44,883 nt of DNA from a virus. The DNA is taken from positions 1 to 44,883 of IMG/VR virus record IMGVR_UViG_3300042691_012537; one strand, given 5' to 3'. The position numbers and the translations under genes were made by a program. Below are positions 2,915 to 40,588 of the stretch, piece by piece. A model generated the notes under the pieces. It was not told where the DNA came from. It ran no database searches and saw only the letters and a list, made by a program, of their open reading frames with translations. Within the stretch, counting starts at the first letter, position 1, and each line of letters opens with the position of its first letter.

Positions 2915-4786
2915 ATGACCAGTCAGATCAACCCAACAGCAATCAATGATCAATATCCTGTGGCTGCCCAGCCCAACAATACCCAAGGATTCAGAGATAA
3001 TTTCGCCGGCACTAAAACTAATTTTGAATATGCCGCAGAAGAAATCACAGAGCTTCAAACCAAATCAATTTTAAACGCTGCCTTGGACAATGGATCTTCT
3101 CTGAGTACACAAAACAACATGTTGGGTGCGCCTTTGATTGGCGCTAAGATACGTAATTTTAGTGCTGATTCAGTGAACATTGCAACCACTTCGGGCCCAA
3201 TTATATTAGATTATAGTCAAGGACATTATCAGCGTATTGCAACCACAGGCAACATTAACTTAGGCTTTAGTAACTTTGCGCCTTCAGGTAGTTTTAGCAG
3301 CATACGAGTACAGGTCATTGTTGATGCTGTTGGCCGTACCATGGCTCTTAGCCCTTACGTAACGCTAGGCACAGACGGCATTCAGGGCTATGCCAGTGGT
3401 ACTATTACTTTTGCCGAAGCAGGCACTTATCAATTTGGGTTTACAACATCTGACTCAGGCGCCACTATCACAATTCAGGATTTAAATCGCCCATTGAGTG
3501 ATTACACCAATCCTGTGACAATTGCCAGCACCGAGCCTAGTATCAGCATTACCTCAGGTGCGCTGGTAGTTGCTGGCGGTGTTGGCGTTGCTGGTAATCT
3601 TTATGTGGACGGCAACATTGTTGGAAACTTTGTAGCCACCACTCAAACATTTGCCGGTAACTTAACTGGTGGAAATCTATTGACCAGTGGCATAATGAGT
3701 GCCACAGGCAATGTCTCTGGCGGTAACATTAGAACCACAGGGCAAGTTTCAGCCACAGGCAACGTTACTGGAGCTTATATCATCGGTGATGGTAGTCAAT
3801 TGACCAATATCACTGTGTCCGGTGGATCAGCCATTGTCAACGGAACCAGTAATGTAAGAGCAATTGCCAACAGTAATATCACTATTGGAATTGGCGGATC
3901 AAACGTTGCTGTATGGGCCAACACAGGTGGTTTTGTAACTGGTTTAATCAGCGCCACAGGTAACATCACTGGCGGCAACCTTAGGACTGCTGGACAAGTT
4001 TCAGCCACAGGCAACATCACTGGCGGTAACATTCTAGCAGGTTCGGGAGTTGGAGTTGGCGGCGATGTTGGAGTTGGCGGCATTATATTTGCAAATGGCA
4101 ACATCAACACCAACACCTCATTCAACGCTGTTGGCAATATTGTTGGTTCTTATTTCATTGGCAACGGAGCATTTTTATCAGGCCTGTCTAGTACTTCAAG
4201 AATCACAGCAGGTACCACAGAATTGGGCGTTTCTACCCCAAGTGGTAATATTCAGGCAACCGTTGGAGGCACAGCAAACATAGCCGTAATTTCCACGCAA
4301 GGTATAGATATCACTGGAAACGTAACAGCCTCTGCTAACTTAGAAGGTGTTGGTGTCAGTGTCACTGGCAACGTCACTGGTGGCAATCTACGCAGCAACG
4401 GTTTGATCAGTGCTGCTGGTAACATCACTGGCGGTAACATTGCAGGTACTGGCAATGTATCGTTGGTTGGCAACGTGATTGCTGGAAACTTGACCACTGG
4501 TGCACAAATGGTTGCACTTGGCAACGTCACTGGCGGTAACATTGTTACCAACGGTCAGGTGCGCTCTTTCAACGGTACTGCTGTTTCAGCAGGAGGCACA
4601 GCTGGAGCAGGATACGTATTTTCAACTACTGCAAACTTTGGTGTATTCTTTGGATCAGGTGCACCAACATTGGCCGCAGCCAAAGGATCATTGTACCTAC
4701 GCAGTGACGGTACTACCACCAACGATCGCATGTACGTAAACACCAATGGCTCTACTACCTGGACCGCAGTAATTACTGCAAGTTAA
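2915..4786 (+). CDS. Gly/Asn-repeat tail fibre or whisker-like structural protein
   Basis: 623 residues. The N-terminus has the Q-G-F-R-D-N-F pattern typical of cyanophage T4-like virion proteins, followed by a helical stretch near residues 25-50. Residues 180-230 are a linker, then about 300 residues hold repeated G-N-[VI]-T-G-G-N units separated by short variable segments, as expected for a beta-helical fibre shaft. The C-terminus (G-S-L-Y-L-R-S-D-G then M-Y-V-N-T-N-G) matches common fibre tips. The AAAGGAAAA ribosome site fixes the start. A terminator hairpin follows 28 bases after the stop, inside the convergent radical SAM gene, whose end it overlaps by 14 bases. A host-recognition role is likely but inferred. 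Confidence 0.85.
   Translation: MTSQINPTAINDQYPVAAQPNNTQGFRDNFAGTKTNFEYAAEEITELQTKSILNAALDNGSSLSTQNNMLGAPLIGAKIRNFSADSVNIATTSGPIILDYSQGHYQRIATTGNINLGFSNFAPSGSFSSIRVQVIVDAVGRTMALSPYVTLGTDGIQGYASGTITFAEAGTYQFGFTTSDSGATITIQDLNRPLSDYTNPVTIASTEPSISITSGALVVAGGVGVAGNLYVDGNIVGNFVATTQTFAGNLTGGNLLTSGIMSATGNVSGGNIRTTGQVSATGNVTGAYIIGDGSQLTNITVSGGSAIVNGTSNVRAIANSNITIGIGGSNVAVWANTGGFVTGLISATGNITGGNLRTAGQVSATGNITGGNILAGSGVGVGGDVGVGGIIFANGNINTNTSFNAVGNIVGSYFIGNGAFLSGLSSTSRITAGTTELGVSTPSGNIQATVGGTANIAVISTQGIDITGNVTASANLEGVGVSVTGNVTGGNLRSNGLISAAGNITGGNIAGTGNVSLVGNVIAGNLTTGAQMVALGNVTGGNIVTNGQVRSFNGTAVSAGGTAGAGYVFSTTANFGVFFGSGAPTLAAAKGSLYLRSDGTTTNDRMYVNTNGSTTWTAVITAS
3646..4551 (+). repeat. Degenerate repeats encoding G-N-[VI]-T-G-G-N units
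   Basis: Sequences close to ggcaacgtcactggcggtaa recur within the fibre gene, for example near 3700, 3755, 3960, 4010, 4370, 4420 and 4520. They encode the fibre-shaft repeats. Such units can recombine in and out and change fibre length. Confidence 0.7.
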
Positions 4787-5963
4787 TCAATTCCCAAAAT
4801 TCAGGGAAAGTACTAGCTAGATCTTGTTGTCGCAACAGATCTAGCTTTTTTGTTGACTCAAGAAATTTGTCCCACTGCTGTGGCTGATTTTCCAAAGGCA
4901 TGTCCATGAAATCCATGATGCTAGTGATTTGCCAGTTGGGCTGTTGTGATTCAAGTTGACTACGTATTGTTTGTTTGACTGTGTCTGGCAGTGCTCGAAC
5001 ATTGAGATAGTGTGGATGATGCACCATGTTAAAAAACACAGGAATTTCTCGATCGCAGAAATACTGTTGTATTTGCATCACGTATAAAATGTTCAAAGCA
5101 CACACTGTAACACAGATGTGCATTTTAATGTTGGGGCTGGTTCTGACCAACTGTCGATAACGCAATACGTTCTTTTCAACTGTGCTCCACGTTTCACCAT
5201 ATCGAATATAATCAAAGTGTGGTCCAATACCATCTATGCTAATATCAATGTTTACTGATTTAAACTGTTTGATGATATCAATGTACTCAGGATTCCAAAT
5301 GGTACCATTGGTATTGATATGCAACCCTTGATCTCGGCATCGACCGCTGTCAACACTCTGTTGCAAAATATGAAATACTTTGTCCAACAACATAGGCTCA
5401 GCACCGTAGATGTCATAGTACTCTACATCAGTGAACCAGGTTGCTAGATCTGTCCATAGCTGTGTGTTTTCGTCGCTGTAGCTGCTGCGAATTCTGCCCC
5501 AGGAAGCTAGATATTTCTTATAGTCTGGTTCCCATTTTTGAGCTTCAATTTCCCAGTAGTCGCGATACCATTTGCTAGAAACCTCAGGCCAGCATGTTCT
5601 GCAGGCTAAATTGCAGGTGTTACCAGGTTTAAGGTCCACCAGTTGTGGCTTGTGACCTGTGATCACTAGATCTTTAAATTGTTCATTGGCCACTTGTCTG
5701 CGGCTGCTTCTTCCTGCTGCTTCTTCATTCCAGCAAGCACTGCAATTTGGATGTTGGATCCCTTGTTCTAGATCTCGCTTTATCTCATAGCGTGTAGAAC
5801 TGTTCCAAGCCTGTTCCATAGTATGTGTATCAAGAAAAATTTCCTGACCTTCTGGGTCTCGTAGATAAGTTTGACTGTGACAACACAGCAGGCACCGTCC
5901 TGAATTGTGTAATGCAATCCCAGAATCTGCCCAAACACAATATAAACCTTTGTCTTTTTCCAT
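4773..5963 (-). CDS. Radical SAM enzyme with N-terminal twitch-like cysteine cluster (copy 1)
   Basis: 396 residues. C117-x3-C121-x2-C124 is the radical SAM [4Fe-4S] site. Y-G-A-E-P at 186-190 replaces the usual G-G-E-P SAM-binding motif. Before the core, C9, C24/C27/C28, C74 and C77 match the SPASM/twitch type of auxiliary-cluster ligands, here placed N-terminally. The family cleaves S-adenosylmethionine to a 5'-deoxyadenosyl radical; SPASM/twitch members often modify peptides, but the substrate here is unknown. The ATG at 5963 has a good ribosome site (AAAGGA). The gene diverges from the oxygenase-like gene at 5989 and ends 14 bases inside the fibre gene. Two relatives occur at 27455 and 39449. 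Confidence 0.88.
   Translation of the reverse strand: MEKDKGLYCVWADSGIALHNSGRCLLCCHSQTYLRDPEGQEIFLDTHTMEQAWNSSTRYEIKRDLEQGIQHPNCSACWNEEAAGRSSRRQVANEQFKDLVITGHKPQLVDLKPGNTCNLACRTCWPEVSSKWYRDYWEIEAQKWEPDYKKYLASWGRIRSSYSDENTQLWTDLATWFTDVEYYDIYGAEPMLLDKVFHILQQSVDSGRCRDQGLHINTNGTIWNPEYIDIIKQFKSVNIDISIDGIGPHFDYIRYGETWSTVEKNVLRYRQLVRTSPNIKMHICVTVCALNILYVMQIQQYFCDREIPVFFNMVHHPHYLNVRALPDTVKQTIRSQLESQQPNWQITSIMDFMDMPLENQPQQWDKFLESTKKLDLLRQQDLASTFPEFWELINLQ
4815..4851 (+). terminator. Rho-independent terminator of the fibre gene
   Basis: The arms AGCTAGATCT (4815-4824) and AGATCTAGCT (4837-4846) pair perfectly. An inner GTTG/CAAC extension with one bulged T closes on a TCG loop. A run of T (4846-4851) follows on the plus strand. 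The hairpin lies within the coding sequence of the opposing radical SAM gene. Confidence 0.8.
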
Positions 5964-5989: not shown

Positions 5990-6648
5990 TGTATGATATG
6001 TCAGAACTTACTACAATTTTTACTCCCATTAGATATCTGGTCAGCAAACTGCATTTAAAAATGCCCTGGACCTACGAAGAAGTCGTTGCTGAACTTGAAA
6101 CAGAAGATTGGAAGCCGCATGGAGAAGTTGCTCCTGTAGGGCACAATCCATGGCCTGGAATGCGTTACAAAGTTCTACGCCCTCGTGAAGAAAACAAAAA
6201 GCTAGTAGCAATCAGCAGATATTTTAACAGTCTCAAATTCAAACAACAAGTAGTTGACTGGATGTATGACAATTATCCAGGCACCGACGTGGCCTGGGGC
6301 ATGGACCGTGACACCATGTTTCGACAAAGTCAAACGCACATTGAGTTTACTCGTGACATGCCAGGCTTTGTCAACGCACTACACACAGACTATCGCAAAC
6401 TGATTGCCACTGGCATGGTCTACTTCAGCAATCACGACACTGAAGATCTCAGCAGTTATTTCTACAAATCAGAAAACCGAGATGAACCTGTGCGTATGAC
6501 CACTGAGTTTGGCGACGGTTGGTGGCACCAAAATGGTAATTACACCTGGCACGAAGGATGGAATCGTACTGATCAGGTGCGCTACAGTGGACTTCTAGGG
6601 CTTACTATATACACCAGCGACGCACCTGTTTGGCCAGGGCAGAATTAA
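5989..6648 (+). CDS. Probable Fe(II)/2-oxoglutarate-dependent oxygenase-fold protein
   Basis: 219 residues from the ATG at 5989; the ATG at 5998 (M-S-E-L-T-T) is the more likely start because a TTAAATA box overlaps the first. The order H132-x-D134, H188, R198 fits the double-stranded beta-helix oxygenase facial triad plus the 2-oxoglutarate-binding Arg, with normal spacing (54 and 10 residues). T-G-M-V-Y-F after H-x-D and the final strand L-L-G-L-T-I-Y agree with that fold. Substrate is unknown; phage members of this superfamily are common and mostly uncharacterised. It diverges from radical SAM copy 1 and overlaps the helicase stop by 4 bases. Confidence 0.6.
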   Translation: MYDMSELTTIFTPIRYLVSKLHLKMPWTYEEVVAELETEDWKPHGEVAPVGHNPWPGMRYKVLRPREENKKLVAISRYFNSLKFKQQVVDWMYDNYPGTDVAWGMDRDTMFRQSQTHIEFTRDMPGFVNALHTDYRKLIATGMVYFSNHDTEDLSSYFYKSENRDEPVRMTTEFGDGWWHQNGNYTWHEGWNRTDQVRYSGLLGLTIYTSDAPVWPGQN

Positions 6649-8099
6649 CCTGTTTTTATCTGTCCCAGTAACTGTTTGAGTTTGGCTGTTTGTACATCAG
6701 CGGTTACTTTAGGAACGTCACTTGAGTGAACCATTGGTTTTTCCCATGCGTGTGTGCCTGTGGGTTTCTCCCACTTAGTTGGCGAATCTTCCGATGGCGC
6801 TACTGTGCTTTTGGCCTTGATTGAATCCATGATACTGGGCTTTACTCCACCACGGAAATTGTCTTGTTCGTCGCCGCCTGCATCGGTAATACGCATAGTG
6901 TTAATATCGTATTCAAGATCGATTTTCTGTCCTACACCTGTTGAACTACGACTTTTCATACATTGAATCTGATACTTGCCTCGCTCTTTCATAGCCCGGC
7001 TCGTGAAAATACCAAATACATTGTCCGCTGTATTGATCTTACTAATACCACCACTAATATGACTGTGATCAAATTCAATCTCCTCCACAGCTGATCGATT
7101 CAATTGCGATGCGGTCACAAGCAATATGCCCAGTTCTTTGGCCAAGTTACGCAGTTCTTCACTCACATACTTGTCTTTGACAAACAGATCGTTGGGACTG
7201 ACTTTGGCGCTGACAGGCATCAACAAGTCCAAATAGTCAACCATCATGAAGTCAACTCGGTGTCCTGTTTTGATTTGATATTCTTTTAAGAATGCACGAA
7301 TGTCATTGATGTTGCTTTGTGCTGGCAATGCTTTGACTTGATAGCTACCTGCCTTCTTGCCTACCATTTTGACTTTAAGGGCTGCTGTTGATTTGTCTCG
7401 ACGAATATCTTTAGTTGACATATCTGTCAACATAGCTGCCGTACGCAGACCAGTGAGTTCCTCACTGAGTTCTAGCGAAACATAAACACCATGCAAGCCC
7501 TGTTGTACCCAGTTCAGTGCAATGTTCATCATCACAAGACTCTTGCCTGATCCTGAGCCACCTGCAAAGATGTTGAGTTCGCCGCGACTAAACCCACCAT
7601 ACAGCAGTCTATCCACTTGTGGCCAACCTGTTGATACTTGTCCGCCTGCATCAAAGTACTTGGTAAACATACCCTCAGGATCGGCCCAAAAATCTGTGCC
7701 AAGATCCTTGGTTAAAGAAATTTGTACTGCATCTTTAATCAATTTTTCTACAGGCTCAAACTCACCTTTTTCCAACAGATCTGCACTTTTAAGAATTGCA
7801 CGTTCAAGTTCTTGGCGCTTGGTAAACGCTTCAAACTCAGTCATAAACCAATCATAGTGTCCTTCATTCAAGTCAGGCACTGATTGTAATTTAATTCCTG
7901 TGGCCGCTGTGATCTGTGCACGATCAGGCAACGTGCTGTATTTGGCACTGTGTTCTTTGATAAACTCCGCTGCTCGGCGTATGCTTTTATCAAAGTTGTC
8001 TGGGTTATAAATGTTCTGCACACGCACATAGCTCTGTGCATCTTCCAACATCATTTCCAGGAACAGGCGCTGTACGTCAACTCCGTAGTCTTTTAACAA
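6645..8099 (-). CDS. 41: Replicative DNA helicase, T4 gp41 type
   Basis: 484 residues, a DnaB/RecA-fold helicase expected to unwind DNA at the phage fork with the primase. Walker A is GGSGSGKS at 180-187. Walker B is M-M-V-D-Y-L-D-L at 285-292. An L-E-L-S-E-E segment near 210 holds a likely catalytic Glu. Residues 1-150 form the helical N-terminal domain. The C-terminal 80 residues are a polar tail (K-W-E-K-P repeats). Length is close to T4 gp41 (475). The start overlaps the end of the primase gene by 23 bases, so helicase and primase are co-expressed, as expected for a primosome. Confidence 0.95.
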   Translation of the reverse strand: MLKDYGVDVQRLFLEMMLEDAQSYVRVQNIYNPDNFDKSIRRAAEFIKEHSAKYSTLPDRAQITAATGIKLQSVPDLNEGHYDWFMTEFEAFTKRQELERAILKSADLLEKGEFEPVEKLIKDAVQISLTKDLGTDFWADPEGMFTKYFDAGGQVSTGWPQVDRLLYGGFSRGELNIFAGGSGSGKSLVMMNIALNWVQQGLHGVYVSLELSEELTGLRTAAMLTDMSTKDIRRDKSTAALKVKMVGKKAGSYQVKALPAQSNINDIRAFLKEYQIKTGHRVDFMMVDYLDLLMPVSAKVSPNDLFVKDKYVSEELRNLAKELGILLVTASQLNRSAVEEIEFDHSHISGGISKINTADNVFGIFTSRAMKERGKYQIQCMKSRSSTGVGQKIDLEYDINTMRITDAGGDEQDNFRGGVKPSIMDSIKAKSTVAPSEDSPTKWEKPTGTHAWEKPMVHSSDVPKVTADVQTAKLKQLLGQIKTG

Positions 8100-9060
8100 G
8101 TTGTTTCTTCCTTAATTCTATTTTGATTCTGCTGGTTTCTCTAGCTTGAAGTATAGTTAGCAAAGTTCCAAGTCGTCCATACTTCTTTACTGCATCATTT
8201 ACATCTTTGCAATCTTCCCAGTTGGGTATGCTTACTGCCCAGCCCAGTTCTACGGCGCGGTCAATCAAGTCCAACCCTGCTTGGTCTTGGTCGGGCACCA
8301 CAGTGATTTCTCGTCCTAGACCACGGATCATTCTAGCCTGTGCATCACTGATTTCATTGTGCATGACTGCTAGGCCGCCAATACTGAGTGCATCAAATAT
8401 GCCTTCGGTCACAATCACATGTTGCCAGTCTGGATGCTGTAAGTCAGTGCCGAACACATACCCTGGCTGCACATCAGAAATAAATTTAGGAATCTTGTTG
8501 TCAATAAATCTTGAAGTGTAGCCTACAATTTTGTTTTCGTGTGTGAACGGCACAATTACACAAGGTCTGGTCCAGTGAACTCCATCGGTGCGGATAGGAG
8601 TCATCATGGGAAAGTCTTCAGGTACACGTCGATCACGAATGTAGTCCCAGTACCTAGGATGTTCCTGTGTGATCAATTCACTGCCCGGTGGCAGCTCACG
8701 TTCTTCAAAATCAATGCCTTGTAATACACTGAACACACGTTGTCGGTCTTCTACAATGCCGTAGATACTACGATGGCGTAAACTTTCCAAGTTAGCCAGT
8801 TCAATATCTCGTTCAGGCACACCCAGCCAACTCAAGAGCCTACGGGCCTTGAAGCTCACAGAGCGGCCAAGGATAAAGCTGGCGGTGTAGCCGCAATTGA
8901 AACAGTGATAGCTCCAGCCTTGTTCGTTTGTTTTGATTCCGCCTCGTTGACGTCGGTCTGGGCTGTTGCCGTTGTGATGACAACATGGAGCGTTGAAACT
9001 GACCCACCCACTGGGACTGGCTTTGCGTTTTGCAGGTAGGTATTGAACAATATCAAGCAT
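8077..9060 (-). CDS. 61: DNA primase, T4 gp61 type
   Basis: 327 residues. The N-terminal zinc-binding region has C26-C27-H28-H29 followed by C53-x2-C56 (CHC2-like). The TOPRIM domain has E219-G220 (V-T-E-G-I-F-D-A) and D257-x-D259 (V-V-P-D-Q-D-Q-A-G), the metal-binding acidic residues. It makes RNA primers for the lagging strand and works with the gp41 helicase encoded just downstream. Length is close to T4 gp61 (342). A perfect TATAAT lies only 6 bases before the ATG, so the transcript may start at or near the start codon. Otherwise no ribosome site is visible. Confidence 0.93.
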   Translation of the reverse strand: MLDIVQYLPAKRKASPSGWVSFNAPCCHHNGNSPDRRQRGGIKTNEQGWSYHCFNCGYTASFILGRSVSFKARRLLSWLGVPERDIELANLESLRHRSIYGIVEDRQRVFSVLQGIDFEERELPPGSELITQEHPRYWDYIRDRRVPEDFPMMTPIRTDGVHWTRPCVIVPFTHENKIVGYTSRFIDNKIPKFISDVQPGYVFGTDLQHPDWQHVIVTEGIFDALSIGGLAVMHNEISDAQARMIRGLGREITVVPDQDQAGLDLIDRAVELGWAVSIPNWEDCKDVNDAVKKYGRLGTLLTILQARETSRIKIELRKKQLVKRLRS

Positions 9061-10171: not shown

Positions 10172-10179
10172 TATTTATG
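10172..10179 (-). promoter_or_regulatory. T4-like late promoter box CATAAATA
   Basis: CATAAATA on the minus strand lies 16 bases before the ATG at 10155, with the GAGG ribosome site between. It overlaps the start codon of the divergent gene at 10177, so late expression of one gene could interfere with the other. Confidence 0.6.
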
Positions 10180-10554
10180 GGCAGTGATATCTTTGCAAAA
10201 TTGGCTGAAAAATACCCTTTCATAACGCTGTGCGTCTATGCTAACAACGAATACGTAGGGGTAGTACAAAACAGAGACGACTCTGTTACAACAATCTACG
10301 ACTTTGGGGCTATTGTTAGCCAGCAAGACAAGATGATGTTTCTAGATTTAGCTACTACTTGGTGGTGGGAAAGCAATCGTAGTATACCCATAAACATATT
10401 CTTACGCGGAGATTGGGACAGATTCCGACATACCCTACGCACATTCAGTAACAAAGATTTAGAAATTATTCACGGACCTGTTTGCAGTCTCAGCGATATT
10501 ACCCGTAAAAAGGTCAAACGCAAGAGTATTACCCTGGTCAAACGTCTTGGTTGA
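10177..10554 (+). CDS. Conserved small T4-like marine phage protein of unknown function
   Basis: 125 residues. The patterns Y-V-G-V-V-Q-N, W-W-W-E-S-N-R, I-P-I-N-I-F-L and H-G-P match, from memory, a protein widely conserved in T4-like cyanophages and pelagiphages; its function is not known to me. The C-terminus is strongly basic (K-K-V-K-R-K-S-I-T-L-V-K-R), suggesting nucleic acid or acidic-partner binding. It is the only plus-strand gene in this part, diverges from the structural gene at 10155, and its last 17 bases overlap the end of the polymerase-like gene. Confidence 0.85.
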   Translation: MGSDIFAKLAEKYPFITLCVYANNEYVGVVQNRDDSVTTIYDFGAIVSQQDKMMFLDLATTWWWESNRSIPINIFLRGDWDRFRHTLRTFSNKDLEIIHGPVCSLSDITRKKVKRKSITLVKRLG

Positions 10555-11098
10555 GAAGATTCATATGCAGTGCTACCAAGGCTGCGTAACTGATCGCATG
10601 TGCCTTTTTGAATGTGTATCCCCGACTAGTATCTCCATCCCACACTGACGCAAACACTTCTGCCCAGGGTTGCCGTTGTAGGTGTGCTTTACCTGGACGA
10701 ATAATTGATATAAAAGCAGCCAGTCTTGGTATGCTGTCTGGCTTCATTTCTTTTAACAAATCATAGTAATTGCCCACGTGCGCCAACTGGCCGACCCAGT
10801 GCGCATCAGTCCACAGTCGACTCCAAGGAGGAGTTGCTGCCAACATAGCTTCATAGTGTTCAGGACTCTGAATCAAGCTGTACACACTCATGTTCAGGAA
10901 GTCCAGCTTGAAGTAGCCACGTTGTTCTGCTGTTTCATAATCAATGGCCGCACACTGGTTCACCGGATCTTGCGGAATGTCAGTGACATACACTCCCGAA
11001 TTGTGCCGTCGCCCATCGCTTTGTCGTGCGGCTGTGTGCTGAATCAAATTCAGCACAGCATTTCGGTCAGCAAAGTCCAAGTCAATATCTGCGCTCAT
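10538..11098 (-). CDS. Miniature C-family DNA polymerase (Pol III alpha)-like protein
   Basis: 186 residues. The sequence begins with A-D-I-D-L-D-F-A-D-R, like the PDxDxDF palm motif of bacterial Pol III alpha that carries two catalytic Asp. F-K-L-D-F-L-N-M at 63-70 matches the K-x-D-F-L-G-L motif with the third catalytic Asp (D66). I-I-R-P-G-K at 132-137 recalls the R-P-G segment, and G-Y-T-F-K-K-A-H-A-I-S-Y-A at 160-172 recalls the conserved G-x-x-F-N-K-S-H-x-x-x-Y motif. All occur in the correct order in about half the usual distance, without PHP, fingers or OB domains. Whether it polymerises DNA is unknown. ATGA overlap couples it to the upstream gene. Confidence 0.6.
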   Translation of the reverse strand: MSADIDLDFADRNAVLNLIQHTAARQSDGRRHNSGVYVTDIPQDPVNQCAAIDYETAEQRGYFKLDFLNMSVYSLIQSPEHYEAMLAATPPWSRLWTDAHWVGQLAHVGNYYDLLKEMKPDSIPRLAAFISIIRPGKAHLQRQPWAEVFASVWDGDTSRGYTFKKAHAISYAALVALHMNLLNQDV

Positions 11099-11442
11099 TT
11101 TGTATCACACAATGCCATGGCTATCTTTAGTGCATCTTCGGCTCGATCACGTGCCAGCAAAGCATCTGCTACCGTGGGGTGTGTTCGAGCTAACGCTTGC
11201 ATACGCTCTTCCTCGACCATTTTAGTTTGTGCCCATTGTATAATTTCTCTAGTCTCGTTGTCTAGCTCAATTTGCGGATAACTAGATGTCATGGGCAACC
11301 ATGAGCTGCCATCATACACTTCAATATTGTTACCGTTGTACCGTACCATGCCGGCACTGGGTCGACTCATGTCTACGTAAGGTGAATTGTACACATTGCC
11401 TGCAATGTGTATTCCTTGTCCGCCTGTGATATTTCTAATCAT
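11095..11442 (-). CDS. Conserved small phage protein, N-terminal structural-like motif
   Basis: 115 residues. Residues 1-52 (G-G-Q-G-I-H-I-A-G, M-V-R-Y-N-G-N, V-Y-D-G-S-S-W) resemble fibre-tip or virion-associated modules of T4-like marine phages. Residues 55-115 are helical and charged (R-E-I-I-Q-W-A-Q-T-K-M, then A-L-L-A-R-D-R-A-E-D-A-L). The function is not known. It overlaps the polymerase-like gene by ATGA and follows the zinc-finger gene by 1 base, so it lies in the operon running from 13642 to 10538. Confidence 0.75.
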   Translation of the reverse strand: MIRNITGGQGIHIAGNVYNSPYVDMSRPSAGMVRYNGNNIEVYDGSSWLPMTSSYPQIELDNETREIIQWAQTKMVEEERMQALARTHPTVADALLARDRAEDALKIAMALCDTK

Positions 11443-13691: not shown

Positions 13692-14459
13692 ATGATTACC
13701 AAAACATCAATTTATTATCAAGAAGATCTTGCACCAGCATTTGAATTGTCACCGTTTTTATCGCATGGCACCTGCACAGTATGCAACAAAAACACAGAGT
13801 TTGCAATTGACTCTGATTATCCTGACTTGTTTATGACCTACCGGGAAAGTGCTAGATGTGTGCAATGCAATCTAATAGCCAGACAACGTGTGGTCATGAC
13901 TGCTGTAAAACTTTTTGCTCAGCCTGGAAATGTTGTTTACTTACAAGAACAAGTGACCAGCAGCTATGAATGGGCGGTAAAAAATCTCACTGAGTGTACT
14001 GTAATTGGCAGCGAGTATGTGCCCAATGGCGGTCCGCCTGACATACGCCACGAGAATGTCGAAAGTTTGTCATTTGCTGATGCTAGCACGGATATTATTG
14101 TGAGTCAAGATGTATTCGAACATGTGGCCAATCCCTGGCAAGGGTTTGCTGAATGTTATAGAGTGCTTATTCCTGGTGGCCGTATGTTTATGACCATTCC
14201 CTTTGCCGGCGATCCTGCTCATCTTACTGTTGATCGTGTGAAACAAGGACTACCTGATCGTTATCACGGCAATCCACTCAACGACCAAGGTAGTCTAGTG
14301 TATTCAGATTTTGGCTGGGATCTAGTGAGACGACTAAAAAAAATCGGCTTTGCAGTAGAAATGTCTGTGTATCGTTGTAGTGAACTGGGCTGGGCTAGTC
14401 CTATACTGCTGTTCGAGTTGATCAAGCCAGTTTCATCCAATCCAGTCGTTCCTGTGTGA
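13692..14459 (+). CDS. Class I SAM-dependent methyltransferase with zinc-ribbon N-terminus
   Basis: 255 residues. The N-terminus has C-T-V-C (28-31) and C-V-Q-C (57-60), a likely zinc ribbon. The catalytic part matches methyltransferase type 11: V-E-S-L-S-F-A-D-A-S-T-D-I-I-V-S-Q-D near 120-138 followed by V-F-E-H-V-A-N-P and an I-P-G-G-R-M-F-M-T-I-P-F strand. The usual G-x-G-x-G loop is replaced by a weaker segment. Similar enzymes occur in polysaccharide gene clusters; O-methylation of a surface sugar is an inference. The last 38 bases overlap the uvsW 3' end. Confidence 0.8.
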   Translation: MITKTSIYYQEDLAPAFELSPFLSHGTCTVCNKNTEFAIDSDYPDLFMTYRESARCVQCNLIARQRVVMTAVKLFAQPGNVVYLQEQVTSSYEWAVKNLTECTVIGSEYVPNGGPPDIRHENVESLSFADASTDIIVSQDVFEHVANPWQGFAECYRVLIPGGRMFMTIPFAGDPAHLTVDRVKQGLPDRYHGNPLNDQGSLVYSDFGWDLVRRLKKIGFAVEMSVYRCSELGWASPILLFELIKPVSSNPVVPV

Positions 14460-15891
14460 AAGGATAATTGGCTTCTTTGTAGTAGGCTTTGCGCTTGGTC
14501 AAGTGGCGTTTAGCAAACTTGCAAGTGCTAGTTACATCCCAGATCTCCACATGATCTTTATCTTCCGCCTTACGTATGCCACGGCCAATCGACTGAATGA
14601 CTCTAGTAAAACTCTTACCAGACTCAACCATAACCAAATTAAAAATACGGGGGATGTTAATACCAACAGCAGCCACCCCATATGTTGCCACAATGATTTT
14701 ATCTGTTGCTTCAGCCACTTCATCATATTCGCTTTGTCTATCTTTGGATTTTGTTGCGCCCGACACAAACACCGCCCGGTCCCCTAGTCTTTCAACCAAG
14801 GCATGTCCAGCAGCCACACGATCCACCAGCACCAAGGTATTGCCTGTTTCGTTTACTTGACGGACCAATGCCGCTATAGCATCCAGTCGGCCTGACTCTT
14901 CCAGCAAATACTTTAGTTCTTTTTGATAGTCTGCAAACTCCACATGATCCATTAGTTGCACAATGTTGACGTGACACTGCGCTAACACTCCTTGCTGTTG
15001 TAATTCGTTGGCCGACAGTCTACCTATCACAGGACCCAAGCTAACCAACAGTGCTTGGCTTTCGAACTTTTCTTTTGGCACAGTACCTGTTAAACCCCAA
15101 CGAATTGGCACTTGCGCCATTACACTGGTCAGCAGGGTTTTTAATGCATCTGCTTTGGCCATGTGTACTTCATCTACCATGACACATACCACACCCTCAA
15201 TAAAATCCTGTATGGTGCAATCGCCTACACCGGCTTTGGTGTTCTTCAACAGCACATTGAGACTTTGCCAGGTACATATGGTATGTGTACGACCCCACTC
15301 TTTGCGATCACCAAAATATACACCAACATCCAGGCCCAAGTTTACATAATCCCGTTCAGTCTGGCGCACAAGATCTTTGTTGGGCACAATAACAATTGAT
15401 CTACCATGTGCTTCCACTGCGGCACTCAGCGTAGCAGTCATAATTGTTTTGCCGGCGCCTGTGGCCACTTCTTGTATGCACTGCGGATTTTGTAGGAAGT
15501 TATTGATGATTTCAACTTGATAATCACGCAACATCACAGGCTGCCCCTCAGCAGGATGTCCTTTGGGCCAGGTCTTGTGAGCCCAGGTAAGCTCTTCCAC
15601 TACATTAAAATCAAATGTATTAGAATATGTACGTTGGTCATCTAGCTCGATATCGTAGTCGTACTGTTCTAAAATAGGAATGATTTCGGGCAGTAAGTTT
15701 GTGTATGTAGATCCACCTAGTTGGAAGTAACTGACTTTGCCGTCCCATCGTCCTAGGCGTACTGCTGGAAGATACCTTGCATAAGGCACATCATATTTGA
15801 AGGTGTTTACTAATTTCTTACGACAGTCTAGATCCAGACCTTCAATCTTGATGTTGACTTCGTCACGTATTTGTATTGTGCATTGTTTCAT
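14422..15891 (-). CDS. uvsW: UvsW-type recombination DNA helicase
   Basis: 489 residues, superfamily 2. Walker A is A-T-G-A-G-K-T at 143-149; the DEAD-type box is D-E-V-H at 240-243; motif III is G-L-T-G-T near 275; motif VI is Q-S-I-G-R-G-I-R-K near 440. The N-terminal 100 residues match the substrate-recognition region of T4 UvsW, as does the length (T4 UvsW is 503). T4 UvsW branch-migrates recombination intermediates, regresses forks and unwinds R-loops at origins, switching replication to the recombination mode. The unknown gene upstream is coupled by ATGA. Confidence 0.93.
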   Translation of the reverse strand: MKQCTIQIRDEVNIKIEGLDLDCRKKLVNTFKYDVPYARYLPAVRLGRWDGKVSYFQLGGSTYTNLLPEIIPILEQYDYDIELDDQRTYSNTFDFNVVEELTWAHKTWPKGHPAEGQPVMLRDYQVEIINNFLQNPQCIQEVATGAGKTIMTATLSAAVEAHGRSIVIVPNKDLVRQTERDYVNLGLDVGVYFGDRKEWGRTHTICTWQSLNVLLKNTKAGVGDCTIQDFIEGVVCVMVDEVHMAKADALKTLLTSVMAQVPIRWGLTGTVPKEKFESQALLVSLGPVIGRLSANELQQQGVLAQCHVNIVQLMDHVEFADYQKELKYLLEESGRLDAIAALVRQVNETGNTLVLVDRVAAGHALVERLGDRAVFVSGATKSKDRQSEYDEVAEATDKIIVATYGVAAVGINIPRIFNLVMVESGKSFTRVIQSIGRGIRKAEDKDHVEIWDVTSTCKFAKRHLTKRKAYYKEANYPFTQERLDWMKLA

Positions 15892-25547: not shown

Positions 25548-26224
25548 AATCTTTGCTGGCAATATTCAGTAAGTATTCGTTCTCTGTGCCACTCGTTGCC
25601 TTGTGGAGTATCAGCAAACTCCTGAAAGCATGGCGTGCCAAGTGTGTAGTGCAGTAACTTGGCGTCGGCATTTGGCCCGTATTCATCAGGCAACCAGTTC
25701 CATTCAGGTGGGAGTTCGCCCACACGCTCATCATCCAGCCAAGTAAACCTGTGTAGTTCAGCACCGGTTGCTTTTTGCACAAACTCGGGAGTGAGTTTGC
25801 GATTGGGAAAACTGTTGCAGTTCCAGAGTATGACACTTGACCAGTTCTTGCGTGGATAATCTTCGTTCTTGGACCCTAGATACTTCTCAGTCATTCGAGT
25901 TTTGTAGTCATGCTTGACCACCATGACATCATTATAGGGATTTTGCAAGTCCCATAATTCAGCAATGTCCCCACGTACAATCATGTCGCCGTCTATAAAG
26001 ATAGCCCATCCTGTGTACTCCATCAAGTGAGGCACCAAGAAACGTGTGTAGATAAAATGATTTGAGCCGTCTGTGTGCGTTTCTGAATAGTCCCGAAACA
26101 GATTAAGTGCCACAGGCACAATAGCAACAGGTCTAGAACTGTTGCGAATGATTGAATTCACACAGGTATGATATGCTATGGCTTCTCTAGGATCATATCC
26201 TACAAATACAGGAATAGCTTTCAT
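25544..26224 (-). CDS. GT-A-type glycosyltransferase (GT8-like)
   Basis: 226 residues. F-V-G-Y-D-P-R-E at the N-terminus, I-F-I-D-G-D-M-I-V with D-x-D near 75, N-W-S-S-V-I-L-W-N-C near 127, and L-H-Y-T-L-G-T-P-C-F near 190 are all family landmarks. The last provides the His that binds the donor pyrophosphate. It is coupled by ATGA on both sides: to the cytidylyltransferase-cupin gene before and to paralogue 4 after. The likely role is adding a hexose to a surface polymer. Confidence 0.85.
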   Translation of the reverse strand: MKAIPVFVGYDPREAIAYHTCVNSIIRNSSRPVAIVPVALNLFRDYSETHTDGSNHFIYTRFLVPHLMEYTGWAIFIDGDMIVRGDIAELWDLQNPYNDVMVVKHDYKTRMTEKYLGSKNEDYPRKNWSSVILWNCNSFPNRKLTPEFVQKATGAELHRFTWLDDERVGELPPEWNWLPDEYGPNADAKLLHYTLGTPCFQEFADTPQGNEWHRERILTEYCQQRL

Positions 26225-26979
26225 TTACGCTCAATGTCCTCTTCCACACAATCTTCGCCGTACTGAATTTCAATTAACTTGAGTGGTTGATTGGTTTCAT
26301 TGCACAACTGATGCCACTCACCAAGTTTGATCCAGGTGTGTTGGTGTCGCGCTGGACTAGCCATCAAGTCATAATCAGTGCTGTGTGGATCCACTGTGTA
26401 TACTGTGGCTTCACCTTCAGCAACAAACCAAAACTCTGCACGTTTTTCGTGCCGTTGCATGCTCAAGCATGTCTTGGGATTTACTGTGAGTTCTTTGAGT
26501 TTGGTGTTGGCACCCACTTCGTGTAACACTCGATAGTAACCCCAAGTGCGTTCAGTGCGCGGTTTCTTCCAGTCCTCAAGAATCCAGCTGGAGCTGTTCT
26601 TCTTGTCATGTCCCCCAACACCAAACACAAACTCAACGTCGGGCACTGACATTTCAGGAATGTTTTCCTGTGTGCGATCTCCGCCGTTGGCAAAAATGAT
26701 TTCAGCATTGGGATGTCGTGCTTTTACCATACGGATAGCATCACAACTGGACCCATCGTCGTCGTTGTAAACCACAACTTCGTCAACCACTGCAAGATTG
26801 CCAACAATGGCCATGCGCTCTTGCAAAGGCATGAAAGGCCTACCTTTTTTACGGGTAAGCCATTCATCAGAGTTAAGTCCTACTATCAGTCTATCACCCA
26901 GTGTTCGGGCAGCTTTGAAATAGGCAATGTGTCCAGAGTGCAGGGGATCAAATCCCCCAGTAACTATAACAATTTTCAT
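26221..26979 (-). CDS. Cytidylyltransferase fused to a ManC-type cupin domain
   Basis: 252 residues in two domains. Residues 1-140 are a RfaE/TagD-type cytidylyltransferase: G-G-F-D-P-L-H-S-G-H at 8-17 (the HxGH site) and N-S-S-S-W at 128-132 (like R-x-S-S-T). Residues 145-252 match the C-terminal cupin of mannose-1-phosphate guanylyltransferase/phosphomannose isomerases: W-G-Y-Y, L-S-M-Q-R-H-E-K-R-A-E-F-W, I-E-I-Q-Y-G-E and E-E-D-I-E-R. A CDP-activated sugar or polyol with an isomerase step is inferred. It heads a six-gene minus-strand island. A late-like AGTAAATA box lies 5 bases before the ATG. Confidence 0.85.
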   Translation of the reverse strand: MKIVIVTGGFDPLHSGHIAYFKAARTLGDRLIVGLNSDEWLTRKKGRPFMPLQERMAIVGNLAVVDEVVVYNDDDGSSCDAIRMVKARHPNAEIIFANGGDRTQENIPEMSVPDVEFVFGVGGHDKKNSSSWILEDWKKPRTERTWGYYRVLHEVGANTKLKELTVNPKTCLSMQRHEKRAEFWFVAEGEATVYTVDPHSTDYDLMASPARHQHTWIKLGEWHQLCNETNQPLKLIEIQYGEDCVEEDIERK

Positions 26980-27002: not shown

Positions 27003-27455
27003 TTACACGGTAATATCTTCCATGCCAGCTGTGCGTAATCTAGTGATATGACCCAGCTGCCATTGCTTGGTTTCTAGGCCTTTCATGATACCCAACCAGC
27101 GGTTACGCAATAACGCCACTTCGTTGATAATGGTTTCAAAATCAACCACTTCGTCTTCGCCATCAGCATACTTTTCAGCATCTCGACTAGTTAATGCTCT
27201 AGCATAGCTTTCAAGGTACTTTTGAAAATGTTTACGACGAATTTTGCGCAGTTGTATGTTGAGATAATTTAGCACAGCCTCAATTTCTTGTAGTTGGTTA
27301 AATCTGTGCTCCGTATGTCCCGGTAGTTCTTTAAGAGCACGTTCAACTAACCCACCAATTCTACAATCGCGTTTGGCATCTTCTAGCTCACGTTCATAGT
27401 GAGCAATAAAATCAGGAATCGCCCCAAGATCAGCAACAACTTTACTGTACCACAT
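27003..27455 (-). CDS. uvsY: UvsY recombination mediator
   Basis: 150 residues, close to T4 UvsY (137). It is helical and basic, with R-R-K-H-F-Q-K-Y-L-E-S-Y in the middle and I-N-E-V-A-L-L-R-N-R-W-L-G-I-M-K-G-L then H-I-T-R-L-R-T at the end, matching the C-terminal pattern of UvsY. UvsY helps the UvsX recombinase displace gp32 from ssDNA. All three partners are encoded in this operon (uvsX at 28952, gp32 at 30762), which supports the call. It overlaps the previous radical SAM gene as TAATG. Confidence 0.75.
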   Translation of the reverse strand: MWYSKVVADLGAIPDFIAHYERELEDAKRDCRIGGLVERALKELPGHTEHRFNQLQEIEAVLNYLNIQLRKIRRKHFQKYLESYARALTSRDAEKYADGEDEVVDFETIINEVALLRNRWLGIMKGLETKQWQLGHITRLRTAGMEDITV

Positions 27456-28714
27456 TATATGTTTTTCTCATTGAAATATTGATTTATTTCTGGCCAAAGC
27501 TTTTTCCAATCAGTGCCGCGCCGTTGATCAATTGTGTCTAATGTTTGTTTTAGCATGTGCAATCGATCAATTTCGACAGTACCAGCAGCCGCAAGAGCTG
27601 CAATACCTTCCAGACGTTTTCGAGACTCAATGTCCCAGTCTGTAGCAATAGGAAATTCAGTTATCAGTTGATCAAACTGATGTTGAAAAAACTCACCACC
27701 AAAAATTTGAGGATGATATATTTTCTCAAGTCCGCTGTCAACCAAGTGATAATCCTGCAGAATTTTAGGATTGATTTTTTTATACTCTGCAATTCTTTGT
27801 TGCAGATCAATAGCAGTTTTCATTGTTAATGAGGTTATTACTTGATGTACTGACAATGCCATCCACCGATGCTGCATTAACGATTCAAAATTGCGCTGCC
27901 AATTTTGTAAATTCAACCCATAGCGAACAAACTCTGCTTGATCGCCCCAGCAGTCTAAACTAGCAGACACATGAACTTGTTTGATTTTTCTTTTAACTGT
28001 GAGATCTCGACCAGCATCAATAAACCGTTGCAGGGTTTCTGCATTGCAGTTGAGATTTGTGTTTATTGCAAGCTCAAGATTTTTATTGTCAAGGCTGTAT
28101 AAGATCTCTAAGATTTGCCAGAATTCATTTTGCAACAAAGGCTCGCCACCGAGTATACTGAGCCTTGACAACTTTGATCCATTGTTTTTTAACCAATCAA
28201 GATATAGTGAAAAAAGCTGATCACGATCTGGAGATTTATTCACAGATTCTATGCCCAACGGGTATGGTCCAAACTTTTTAAGTTCTTGGTTTAACTTGGA
28301 ACTAAACACTGGCAAACAATATACACATGCTAGATCGCAGGTATTGTTTAGATAAATTTCGCTGATGCGAGGTGTAACATCTAGGTTATCAGTAGCAAAA
28401 TCAACAGGGGTCAATCCTGAAATTTGATTGTGGTGCAGGCGGTCGCTAACGCCGCCTGCTTGCTCTATGTCTTGGCAGTATTCACAACCGCGTCCCGACG
28501 GCCATTTGCCTTGCAGCATAAGGCGTCGATCATCAAGAACTTCAGGAGTATTGTGAAATGAATCAAAAGTTTCTGGGGTCACTTCGACAGGAGAAACTCT
28601 ATGACAACTTGACGACTTGCCATTGTAGAGTCTTAGAGTATTCCAACCCCATTTAAGCACACATGCAGATGCATTGTGAATAGGAAAAACGCTGTTATTC
28701 CCATTCTTCGTCAT
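27455..28714 (-). CDS. Radical SAM enzyme with N-terminal twitch-like cysteine cluster (copy 2)
   Basis: 419 residues from the ATG at 28714 (M-T-K-N-G-N-N); the longer frame to 28894 is rejected because it is a Thr-rich shadow of the acidic gene. C126-x3-C130-x2-C133 is the radical SAM site and L-G-G-E-P at 188-192 the SAM-binding motif. C18, C37, C77 and C80 precede it, in the same order as the four N-terminal cysteine positions of copies 1 and 3. It lies between uvsY and uvsX, an odd place for a metabolic enzyme. Substrate unknown. Confidence 0.88.
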   Translation of the reverse strand: MTKNGNNSVFPIHNASACVLKWGWNTLRLYNGKSSSCHRVSPVEVTPETFDSFHNTPEVLDDRRLMLQGKWPSGRGCEYCQDIEQAGGVSDRLHHNQISGLTPVDFATDNLDVTPRISEIYLNNTCDLACVYCLPVFSSKLNQELKKFGPYPLGIESVNKSPDRDQLFSLYLDWLKNNGSKLSRLSILGGEPLLQNEFWQILEILYSLDNKNLELAINTNLNCNAETLQRFIDAGRDLTVKRKIKQVHVSASLDCWGDQAEFVRYGLNLQNWQRNFESLMQHRWMALSVHQVITSLTMKTAIDLQQRIAEYKKINPKILQDYHLVDSGLEKIYHPQIFGGEFFQHQFDQLITEFPIATDWDIESRKRLEGIAALAAAGTVEIDRLHMLKQTLDTIDQRRGTDWKKLWPEINQYFNEKNI

Positions 28715-28952
28715 TGTATTCACTGTCTTCGTCGTACTCTTCTTCTTGTTCGTAGTCCTTGTCGTTGTCAAGGTAACTAGTGAGAGCACGTTTAACATCC
28801 GAATCGTGTTTGAAGACATCTCGAATGTCTTCGGGATCTTCGTCGTTGTCAATGAGAATCGATACCAACGTTTCCGCGGCTTCTGTTCTATCAACGGTGT
28901 TAACGTAGCGTTTTAGCTCACCCCAAATTTCGCTAGCGATATGTGAATGCAT
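28695..28952 (-). CDS. Small acidic protein next to uvsX
   Basis: 85 residues. The first 60 form a helical domain (W-G-E-L-K-R-Y-V-N-T-V-D-R-T-E-A-A-E). The last 20 are almost all Asp, Glu, Tyr and Asn, a DNA-mimic-like acidic tail. Similar proteins occur beside uvsX in T4-like marine phages, as I recall. The first base shares the TAATG junction with the uvsX stop, and the last 20 bases overlap the radical SAM start. It may bind a recombination or replication protein, but that is inference. Confidence 0.8.
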   Translation of the reverse strand: MHSHIASEIWGELKRYVNTVDRTEAAETLVSILIDNDEDPEDIRDVFKHDSDVKRALTSYLDNDKDYEQEEEYDEDSEYNDEEWE

Positions 28953-38718: not shown

Positions 38719-39452
38719 AATTTTTCTACATCCTTTGCAACTACCTGCGCAAATGCTCGATTATTTAACCTACCTGGATGCAATAAGTCACGACCTAAAT
38801 CTATCTGCTTTTCGTCCCTAATCAGTGTACAATAAGCATCAGGTGCATATACAATCAAAGGAATATTGTGTTGTAAACAAATGCTGCGAATTGCTTCACG
38901 ATTTTTTTCTGCGGCCAAGTTTAAATTTTCTTCATTTAGCAACAATTCTTTAATGTAAGTACCGGACCAATTTTTGTAATCGTATGCCCAATTTAACACT
39001 AAGGGAGCATGAGATTGCGACGAAATTATTTCTGTTCTATTGTATCTAGGCTCAAGGTACACTACAAACTTAGGTAATAGCTTTGGCACGTAATGTTTTG
39101 CAACTCTAAAACAAGTGTCCCCGGCGGCACCAGCAATTCCAAGGTTCCAACAATGCAATTTAATTTCTTGTGAAACAGCAGTAGTCCATCTGTCTTGTAC
39201 GTTAACTCCGGTTCCTTGTGTAAAACTGCAACCAATGGCCATCCAATTTGATCTAGAATCAAACTCGTCAACTCTAAACCCTTCACTGTTAAACGTATAC
39301 TCAATGTCAACGTCAACCCAGCCAAATAGATTCAACAGTCGCGCATGTTCTGTGTTGGCCAAGTGTTTGTTGTAGGCTTCTTCGGAGTCAGGACTCAACC
39401 ACTTGATTGTTGTACCTGCATGTTTGCTCCATTGATGTAGTGGCGCTGTCAT
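38712..39452 (-). CDS. SGNH/GDSL-type hydrolase
   Basis: 246 residues. A-I-G-C-S-F-T-Q-G near 72-80 is block I with the nucleophile S76. N-L-G-I-A-G-A-A-G-D near 103-112 is block II-like. D222-L-L-H225 is the D-x-x-H dyad. SGNH enzymes cleave acyl esters, commonly O-acetyl groups of capsule or O-antigen. There is no signal peptide, so it may act in the cytoplasm or on the virion. The start overlaps the radical SAM stop as ATGA, so the pair is co-translated. Confidence 0.85.
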   Translation of the reverse strand: MTAPLHQWSKHAGTTIKWLSPDSEEAYNKHLANTEHARLLNLFGWVDVDIEYTFNSEGFRVDEFDSRSNWMAIGCSFTQGTGVNVQDRWTTAVSQEIKLHCWNLGIAGAAGDTCFRVAKHYVPKLLPKFVVYLEPRYNRTEIISSQSHAPLVLNWAYDYKNWSGTYIKELLLNEENLNLAAEKNREAIRSICLQHNIPLIVYAPDAYCTLIRDEKQIDLGRDLLHPGRLNNRAFAQVVAKDVEKLC

Positions 39453-40588
39453 TTTATCAAACTCGCAAACTCAGGCCACAGTTTCTCAAACTGCCCAGCT
39501 TGATCAGGGTGGTATTGAGTTTCAATCTCTTGGATATGCTTGGCCAACTTGCGAGCCACGGCAGGCTTTGATTCTGTCACTGCTTGATAGTTACGCAATG
39601 CCTGGTCAAGGAAGCCACGGTCAGCAGGTGTAGCAAGTCCTGAAGCATAAAAGCGTTCAATTTCTTCAGCAGCCGGCTTGGCGACTTCTGGCCCATGCAA
39701 GAACGGATCAAGATAGTCTGGTTGAAACAAGTTCTGCCATAACACACTCACACCCTGATCTGCTGCAAACTGTCTAAACTCTGTGATCCTTGTAGCATTG
39801 TAGATGTTGTACACTGCATGAATGCCGCCCCAGTGCCCTTGTTTGAACAAGTCTTTGACAATAGCAAGGTTATGTAACACTTGGTCCCACTTACCGCCAT
39901 AACGCACATATTCAAAACGATCACCTGTGTTGTCAAAGCTCATTGACCAGCCAACTTTCTTGCGCTGTGCTAGCTTGCGGAAAATTTTATTTTTCTCAAG
40001 ATCCACGTTCATGTTGGTAATCAGTGTGACTGTGCAATCTTCAGGGATAACATCCAACAAGCGTTCGTTCTCAGGAAGCAACAATGGCTCGCCACCAACA
40101 AGTGCAACGTCTCGAATGTGTGCTTTATGCTCTTCCAAGAAGTCACACACCTGTTCATAGTAGGGACGACTACCAGACTTGAATGGAATGCCTTTGAGTG
40201 CAGACCATTTGGAGCTTGCCCACTCTGAACAATAGTTACAGCTTAGGTTACAGGTGGTATTCCAGCGCACGTCTACAATTACAGGATAGTGATAGTGTTC
40301 ACCAGCTGTGGCATAGTCAAAGTTGGGATTGGTATCGTTGTGCCACTTGCGTTCAGAGTCTGCACCAAAACGTTCGGCCTGTACACAGTTACTACAGTAC
40401 TTGTGTGCTCGCCCTTGCGACATTTCACTGCGTATTTGTTTCAGGAGATCCGAGTCCAAGATCTCTGTAATAGTGTGATCATTGAGGTTGCCCAGCATGT
40501 TGGGGTCACCTGCACAACAGGTTTTGACATCGCCACGTGGATTGATATGCAGCCCACGCCAAGGGGCTGCGCAAAAGAAATTGGTCAT
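39449..40588 (-). CDS. Radical SAM enzyme with N-terminal twitch-like cysteine cluster (copy 3)
   Basis: 379 residues. C113-x3-C117-x2-C120 (C-N-L-S-C-N-Y-C) is the radical SAM site and V-G-G-E-P at 164-168 the SAM motif. The N-terminus (C6, C24/C25, C65, C68) has the clearest twitch-like pattern of the three copies: C-A-A-P-W at the start, G-D-V-K-T-C-C after a G-rich turn, then C-x2-C. The start has a CGTAAATA box only 4 bases upstream. The SGNH hydrolase follows directly with ATGA coupling. Confidence 0.9.
   Translation of the reverse strand: MTNFFCAAPWRGLHINPRGDVKTCCAGDPNMLGNLNDHTITEILDSDLLKQIRSEMSQGRAHKYCSNCVQAERFGADSERKWHNDTNPNFDYATAGEHYHYPVIVDVRWNTTCNLSCNYCSEWASSKWSALKGIPFKSGSRPYYEQVCDFLEEHKAHIRDVALVGGEPLLLPENERLLDVIPEDCTVTLITNMNVDLEKNKIFRKLAQRKKVGWSMSFDNTGDRFEYVRYGGKWDQVLHNLAIVKDLFKQGHWGGIHAVYNIYNATRITEFRQFAADQGVSVLWQNLFQPDYLDPFLHGPEVAKPAAEEIERFYASGLATPADRGFLDQALRNYQAVTESKPAVARKLAKHIQEIETQYHPDQAGQFEKLWPEFASLIK

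Follow-up and report, generated by a model that had tools for sequence, protein, structure and literature searches.

A small protein of a T4-type phage is the Asp-bearing part of a split minimal DNA polymerase III alpha, with a putative partner encoded far away

A 186-residue protein encoded on the minus strand at 10538..11098 of a viral DNA fragment of 44,883 nucleotides (IMG/VR record IMGVR_UViG_3300042691_012537, hereafter the window) is a true homologue of the C-family DNA polymerases, that is, of bacterial Pol III alpha, and its gene is a working one under strong purifying selection. We refer to this protein, which bears the metal-site residues D4/D6 and D66 of a split minimal DNA polymerase III alpha, as the C-unit, and to a second protein encoded elsewhere in related genomes as the N-unit; both halves are contained in PHROGs (phrog_11778 and phrog_11127, respectively). 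We consider it likely that the two constitute a noncovalent two-protein minimal Pol III alpha that serves as an accessory nucleotidyltransferase or DNA polymerase. Split minimal Pol III is already known as a kind, having been described by Iyer et al. 2021 (PMC7824862) in the T4-like jumbo-phage group 2.2 beside a B-family polymerase, and the C-unit is a further member of it; thus, a C-family protein in a T4-type phage is not unexpected, unlike what an earlier sequence-only reading of this DNA had supposed.

The C-unit reading frame runs from an ATG at 11098 to a stop codon ending at 10538, and frame 1 of the plus strand of the same segment (10538-11098) is closed by stops. Its start codon overlaps the stop codon of an upstream minus-strand gene (11095..11442; ATGA), for which no family match was found and to which the C-unit is probably translationally coupled. 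The 3' end of the C-unit is overlapped by 17 bp by a convergent plus-strand gene (10177..10554) encoding a conserved protein of unknown function (phrog_11637; 125 aa, motif WWWESNRxIPIN).

Four motifs of Pol III alpha had been noticed in the C-unit, and they are indeed present and collinear with E. coli DnaE: A-D-I-D-L-D-F (residues 3-9), F-K-L-D-F-L (63-68), I-I-R-P-G (132-136), and G-Y-T-F-K-K-A-H-x-x-x-Y (160-171) correspond to DnaE 399-406, 552-558, 637-642, and 753-764. The DIDLD core of the first (residues 4-8; 11075..11089, minus strand) contains the first two metal-site Asp residues and is aligned with E. coli 401-405, the FKLDFL motif (10895..10912, minus strand) contains the third and is aligned with K553/D555, and the remnants of the fingers (residues 132-171; 10586..10705, minus strand) comprise IIRPGK (132-137) and FKKAHAISY (163-171), which are collinear with E. 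coli 637-642 and 756-764. All three catalytic-Asp motifs claimed earlier can be recognized, with D4, D6, and D66 aligned with E. coli D401, D403, and D555, which are established as the catalytic aspartates of that polymerase. C-unit residues 1-23, 30-76, 92-139, and 155-182 could be aligned to DnaE 397-421, 508-565, 597-644, and 748-775; these segments were picked using HMM alignments as a guide, and their shuffle z-scores were 3.7, 6.6, 8.8, and 5.0, respectively. When E. coli DnaE was compared with all translations of the window, the C-unit ranked first (blastp E=0.025). At the level of sequence, the likeness of these motifs to Pol III alpha is more than would be given by chance.

Searches with profiles and with the predicted fold gave the same assignment. 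The phrog_11778 family, annotated as DNA polymerase, matched residues 3-184 of the 186 (E=3.8e-51), and a profile built from 64 relatives retrieved nine sequences from PDB at E<=10, all of them Pol III alpha (best E=0.004). A phmmer search of PDB with the single C-unit sequence found no Pol III, implying that single-sequence similarity alone is weak and that profiles and fold are needed; the Pfam finger model scored 12.7 bits on the C-unit, under its cut-off of 22. The AlphaFold2 model of the C-unit was confident (pLDDT 93.8, pTM 0.85), and a Foldseek search of PDB matched it to the Pol III palm, with ranks 1-15 all being Pol III alpha or PolC (top probability 1.00) and the first unrelated match having a probability of 0.04. 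The TM-scores of 0.4-0.6 are moderate, in line with the absence of large insertions from this protein. In a comparison with predicted viral proteins, the best matches that carry a name were Pol III-type DNA polymerases. The C-family homology proposed from the sequence was thus borne out.

One of the options that the sequence-only reading had offered was that the C-unit is a relic, the remains of a once complete Pol III alpha gene or a piece of one in decay. Such an origin might be suggested by its length, which is about one sixth of that of Pol III alpha (186 vs 1160 aa) and not half as had been stated. However, pairwise dN/dS values against seven relatives were 0.03-0.11, the length is kept at 184-219 aa among 64 non-redundant members, and gene order is conserved across distantly related jumbo phages. 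Decay is ruled out by the first two of these observations, and we give it practically no probability. The Asp residues whose conservation had been put up for checking, D4, D6, D8, and D66, are invariant in 137/137 relatives, as are H32, G35, K64, R134, P135, K137, W153, F163, H167, Y171, and N180.

The C-unit starts only a few residues from the DxD motif, and hence it lacks the portion of the palm that binds the nucleotide and bears the GRGS motif. This part is found in the N-unit, which was detected independently by a PF07733 search of related large records. The N-unit covers a region similar to E. coli alpha about 278-393, including the GRGS motif, and GxGRGS is invariant in 73/73 N-units. 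Its profile matched only Pol III alpha in PDB (E=4e-4, residues 322-393), and Pol III alpha occupied Foldseek ranks 1-8 for its model, the confidence of which was only moderate (pTM 0.65). The N-unit ends just ahead of the point matching the C-unit start, placing the split between FERFLN (388-393) and MPDFDVDF (399-406) of E. coli, and each unit of the pair has about 200 residues. The C-unit is accordingly not the self-contained minimal enzyme that had been suggested as the alternative to a relic, considering that the GRGS half of the palm is supplied by another protein, whose gene lies at a distance of tens to hundreds of kb. The N-unit is absent from the 44.9-kb window, which is a fragment; the nearest long relative (G001, with a C-unit 94.5% identical) carries it at a distance of about 87 kb. 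Distances between the two genes range from about 30 to over 200 kb; in the data seen they were never adjacent or fused, and no fetched locus held both. One polymerase sequence divided over two distant genes is reminiscent of cyanobacterial DnaE, whose halves are joined by protein trans-splicing, and the C-unit might then belong to a split-intein polymerase. However, no tail as long as an intein is present on either half, since N-units end within a few residues of EFL and C-units start within a few residues of the DxD motif; this explanation is thereby ruled out, and the chance that it is correct appears negligible.

Both units have nearly the same distribution. Among annotated phages, 90 records carry the C-unit and 93 carry the N-unit, the host counts being almost equal, and more than 500 loci of each were found in IMG/VR. 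In a set of 24 large phage records, 23 contained the C-unit, 23 the N-unit, and 22 both; each of the other two records is a metagenome contig, one of 222 kb and one of 262 kb, and may not be complete. All seven named phages checked (7/7) have both units. By comparison, 84,980 cellular genomes yielded only 11 matches, all on metagenome-assembled contigs and probably representing binned phage DNA. A B-family polymerase was present in 23/24 of the large phage records, including G001; none was recognized among the window ORFs read, the window being a fragment. This polymerase is of the T4 gp43 type and is encoded in related genomes carrying the C-unit, to which it is not homologous, the catalytic folds being unrelated. 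That these genomes also encode a full B-family polymerase, and that the C-unit is small and lacks processivity domains, would fit a catalytically dead subunit with a structural or regulatory task, such as an adaptor for the clamp or the primase that descends from Pol III. Nevertheless, the metal-site Asp residues and GRGS are invariant across very divergent homologues, which would be unexpected had catalysis been lost, and we regard a dead subunit as improbable.

The gene order around the C-unit is shared by distant phages. In the window, it runs from a UvsW-like helicase (14422..15891, minus strand), which bounds the conserved neighborhood, through the C-unit, the convergent small gene, and a large virion-type gene to a T4 gp61-like DNA primase (8077..9060, minus strand) and a DnaB-like/gp41 replicative helicase (6645..8099, minus strand). 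The same order was observed in 121Q and RaK2 and, without UvsW, in Phosso, PA5oct, Atu_ph07, and Vibrio phage 2.275; in these four phages UvsW lies outside the stretch read or is unnamed, and some primase and helicase genes are unnamed in the records. The convergent small gene occupies the matching place in all six phages, with sequences compared for Atu_ph07 and Vibrio. The T4-type nature of the window phage, proposed earlier, is confirmed by genes for gp41, gp61, UvsX, UvsW, and terminase. In 121Q, Atu_ph07, and SCTP-2, the N-unit gene is close to that of the gp44 clamp loader. We also noticed that the RefSeq CDS of Atu_ph07 gp074 (3067-3561 in locus L094) starts too far downstream in the open frame (2986-3561), so that the DIDIDF motif is lost; translation probably begins at 2986.

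In the mechanism that we favor, the C-unit would be the catalytic, Asp-bearing part and would bind the separately encoded N-unit without covalent joining, so that a Pol beta-type palm would be rebuilt in which the N-unit may bind the incoming nucleotide by its triphosphate and Asp4, Asp6, and Asp66 of the C-unit may hold two metal ions. The pair might function as a low-processivity accessory enzyme in a T4-like replisome whose main polymerase would be the B-family enzyme, and gap or primer extension and repair are candidate jobs. Heterodimer formation, catalysis, and a biological role of this sort are what we infer as most likely from the homology, the conserved active site, the selective constraint, the co-occurrence of the two genes with each other and with the B-family polymerase, and the shared neighborhoods.

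It speaks against this mechanism that two elements of Pol III have no counterpart in the pair, namely the thumb (about 426-507 in E. coli numbering) and a conserved segment of the fingers (about 645-750) in which the motifs YQEQVM (686-691) and GADMLRRAMGKK (704-715) lie; templated synthesis is therefore uncertain. A search of the 24 large records for a third piece with fingers (PF17657) detected only the C-unit itself, weakly, and a separate polymerase on one contig. Considering that the thumb and the finger segment are missing and that no other recognizable protein supplies them, a serious rival is that the pair has nucleotidyltransferase activity without being a templated polymerase, for example as an enzyme performing template-independent end modification on a Pol III palm; none of the metal-site and GRGS residues has been lost. 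On the other hand, the finger remnants that are invariant and typical of Pol III (RP, K, F-K-x-x-H, and Y) have been retained and the C-unit gene sits among replication genes, and we hold this rival to be rather unlikely. A broader proposition, that the halves have a non-Pol III activity (template-independent or very short-patch addition) or else represent an early C-family form as Iyer et al. propose, is put forward here only tentatively. The separate polymerase mentioned above is a 557-aa single-chain, PHP-less C-family enzyme (L310:3750-5423, minus strand) encoded beside the split pair on the 337-kb contig G013.

The pair shares with the system of Iyer et al. the two-gene division, the motifs, the companion B-family polymerase, and the phage group (relatives of RaK2, 121Q, PBECO4, PA5oct, and Atu_ph07); it differs in sequence only, the C-unit being 34-44% identical to those of isolated phages and its lineage being known from IMG/VR metagenome contigs. 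As in bacterial DnaE, the metal-site Asp residues of the palm are followed by the finger motifs RPG and FxKxH in an unchanged order, with GRGS also present on the partner N-unit. Unlike DnaE, it consists of two proteins and lacks the central finger segment as well as the PHP, thumb, beta-binding, OB, and tau-binding domains. PHP-less single-chain phage C-family polymerases, such as the 557-aa protein, are also small and share the catalytic motifs, whereas they are made of one chain and retain the thumb and the full finger region. Iyer et al. (PMC7824862) suggested that the split enzyme may work together with the family B polymerase and that it may serve as a model of an ancestral form. No experimental follow-up or biochemical test of split Pol III was found among the open-access papers covered, and a 2024 paper on a Sinorhizobium jumbo phage merely lists two Pol III subunits. 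The present analysis adds a larger census, residue-level conservation of both halves, a measurement of selection, a confident model of the C-unit, and an extension of gene-order conservation to its lineage. If the proposed mechanism is true, it would show how little of a bacterial replicase catalysis needs: a Pol III core reduced to two proteins, each some 200 residues long, and maintained by strong selection in a very large set of giant phages in which a B-family polymerase is already present. The question whether the C family arose from separate pieces would be touched as well, and the paired genes and invariant residues make a biochemical test straightforward.

Several other genes of the window were observed. 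Three radical SAM proteins are encoded at 4773-5963, 27455-28894, and 39449-40588 (minus strand), one of which has a SPASM domain; the match at 27455-28894 falls under the Pfam cut-off. A minus-strand gene at 26221-26979 encodes a cytidylyltransferase-like domain fused with a cupin/mannose-6-phosphate isomerase-type domain, and the run of genes at about 19-27 kb resembles, by eye, sugar- or capsule-modifying genes.
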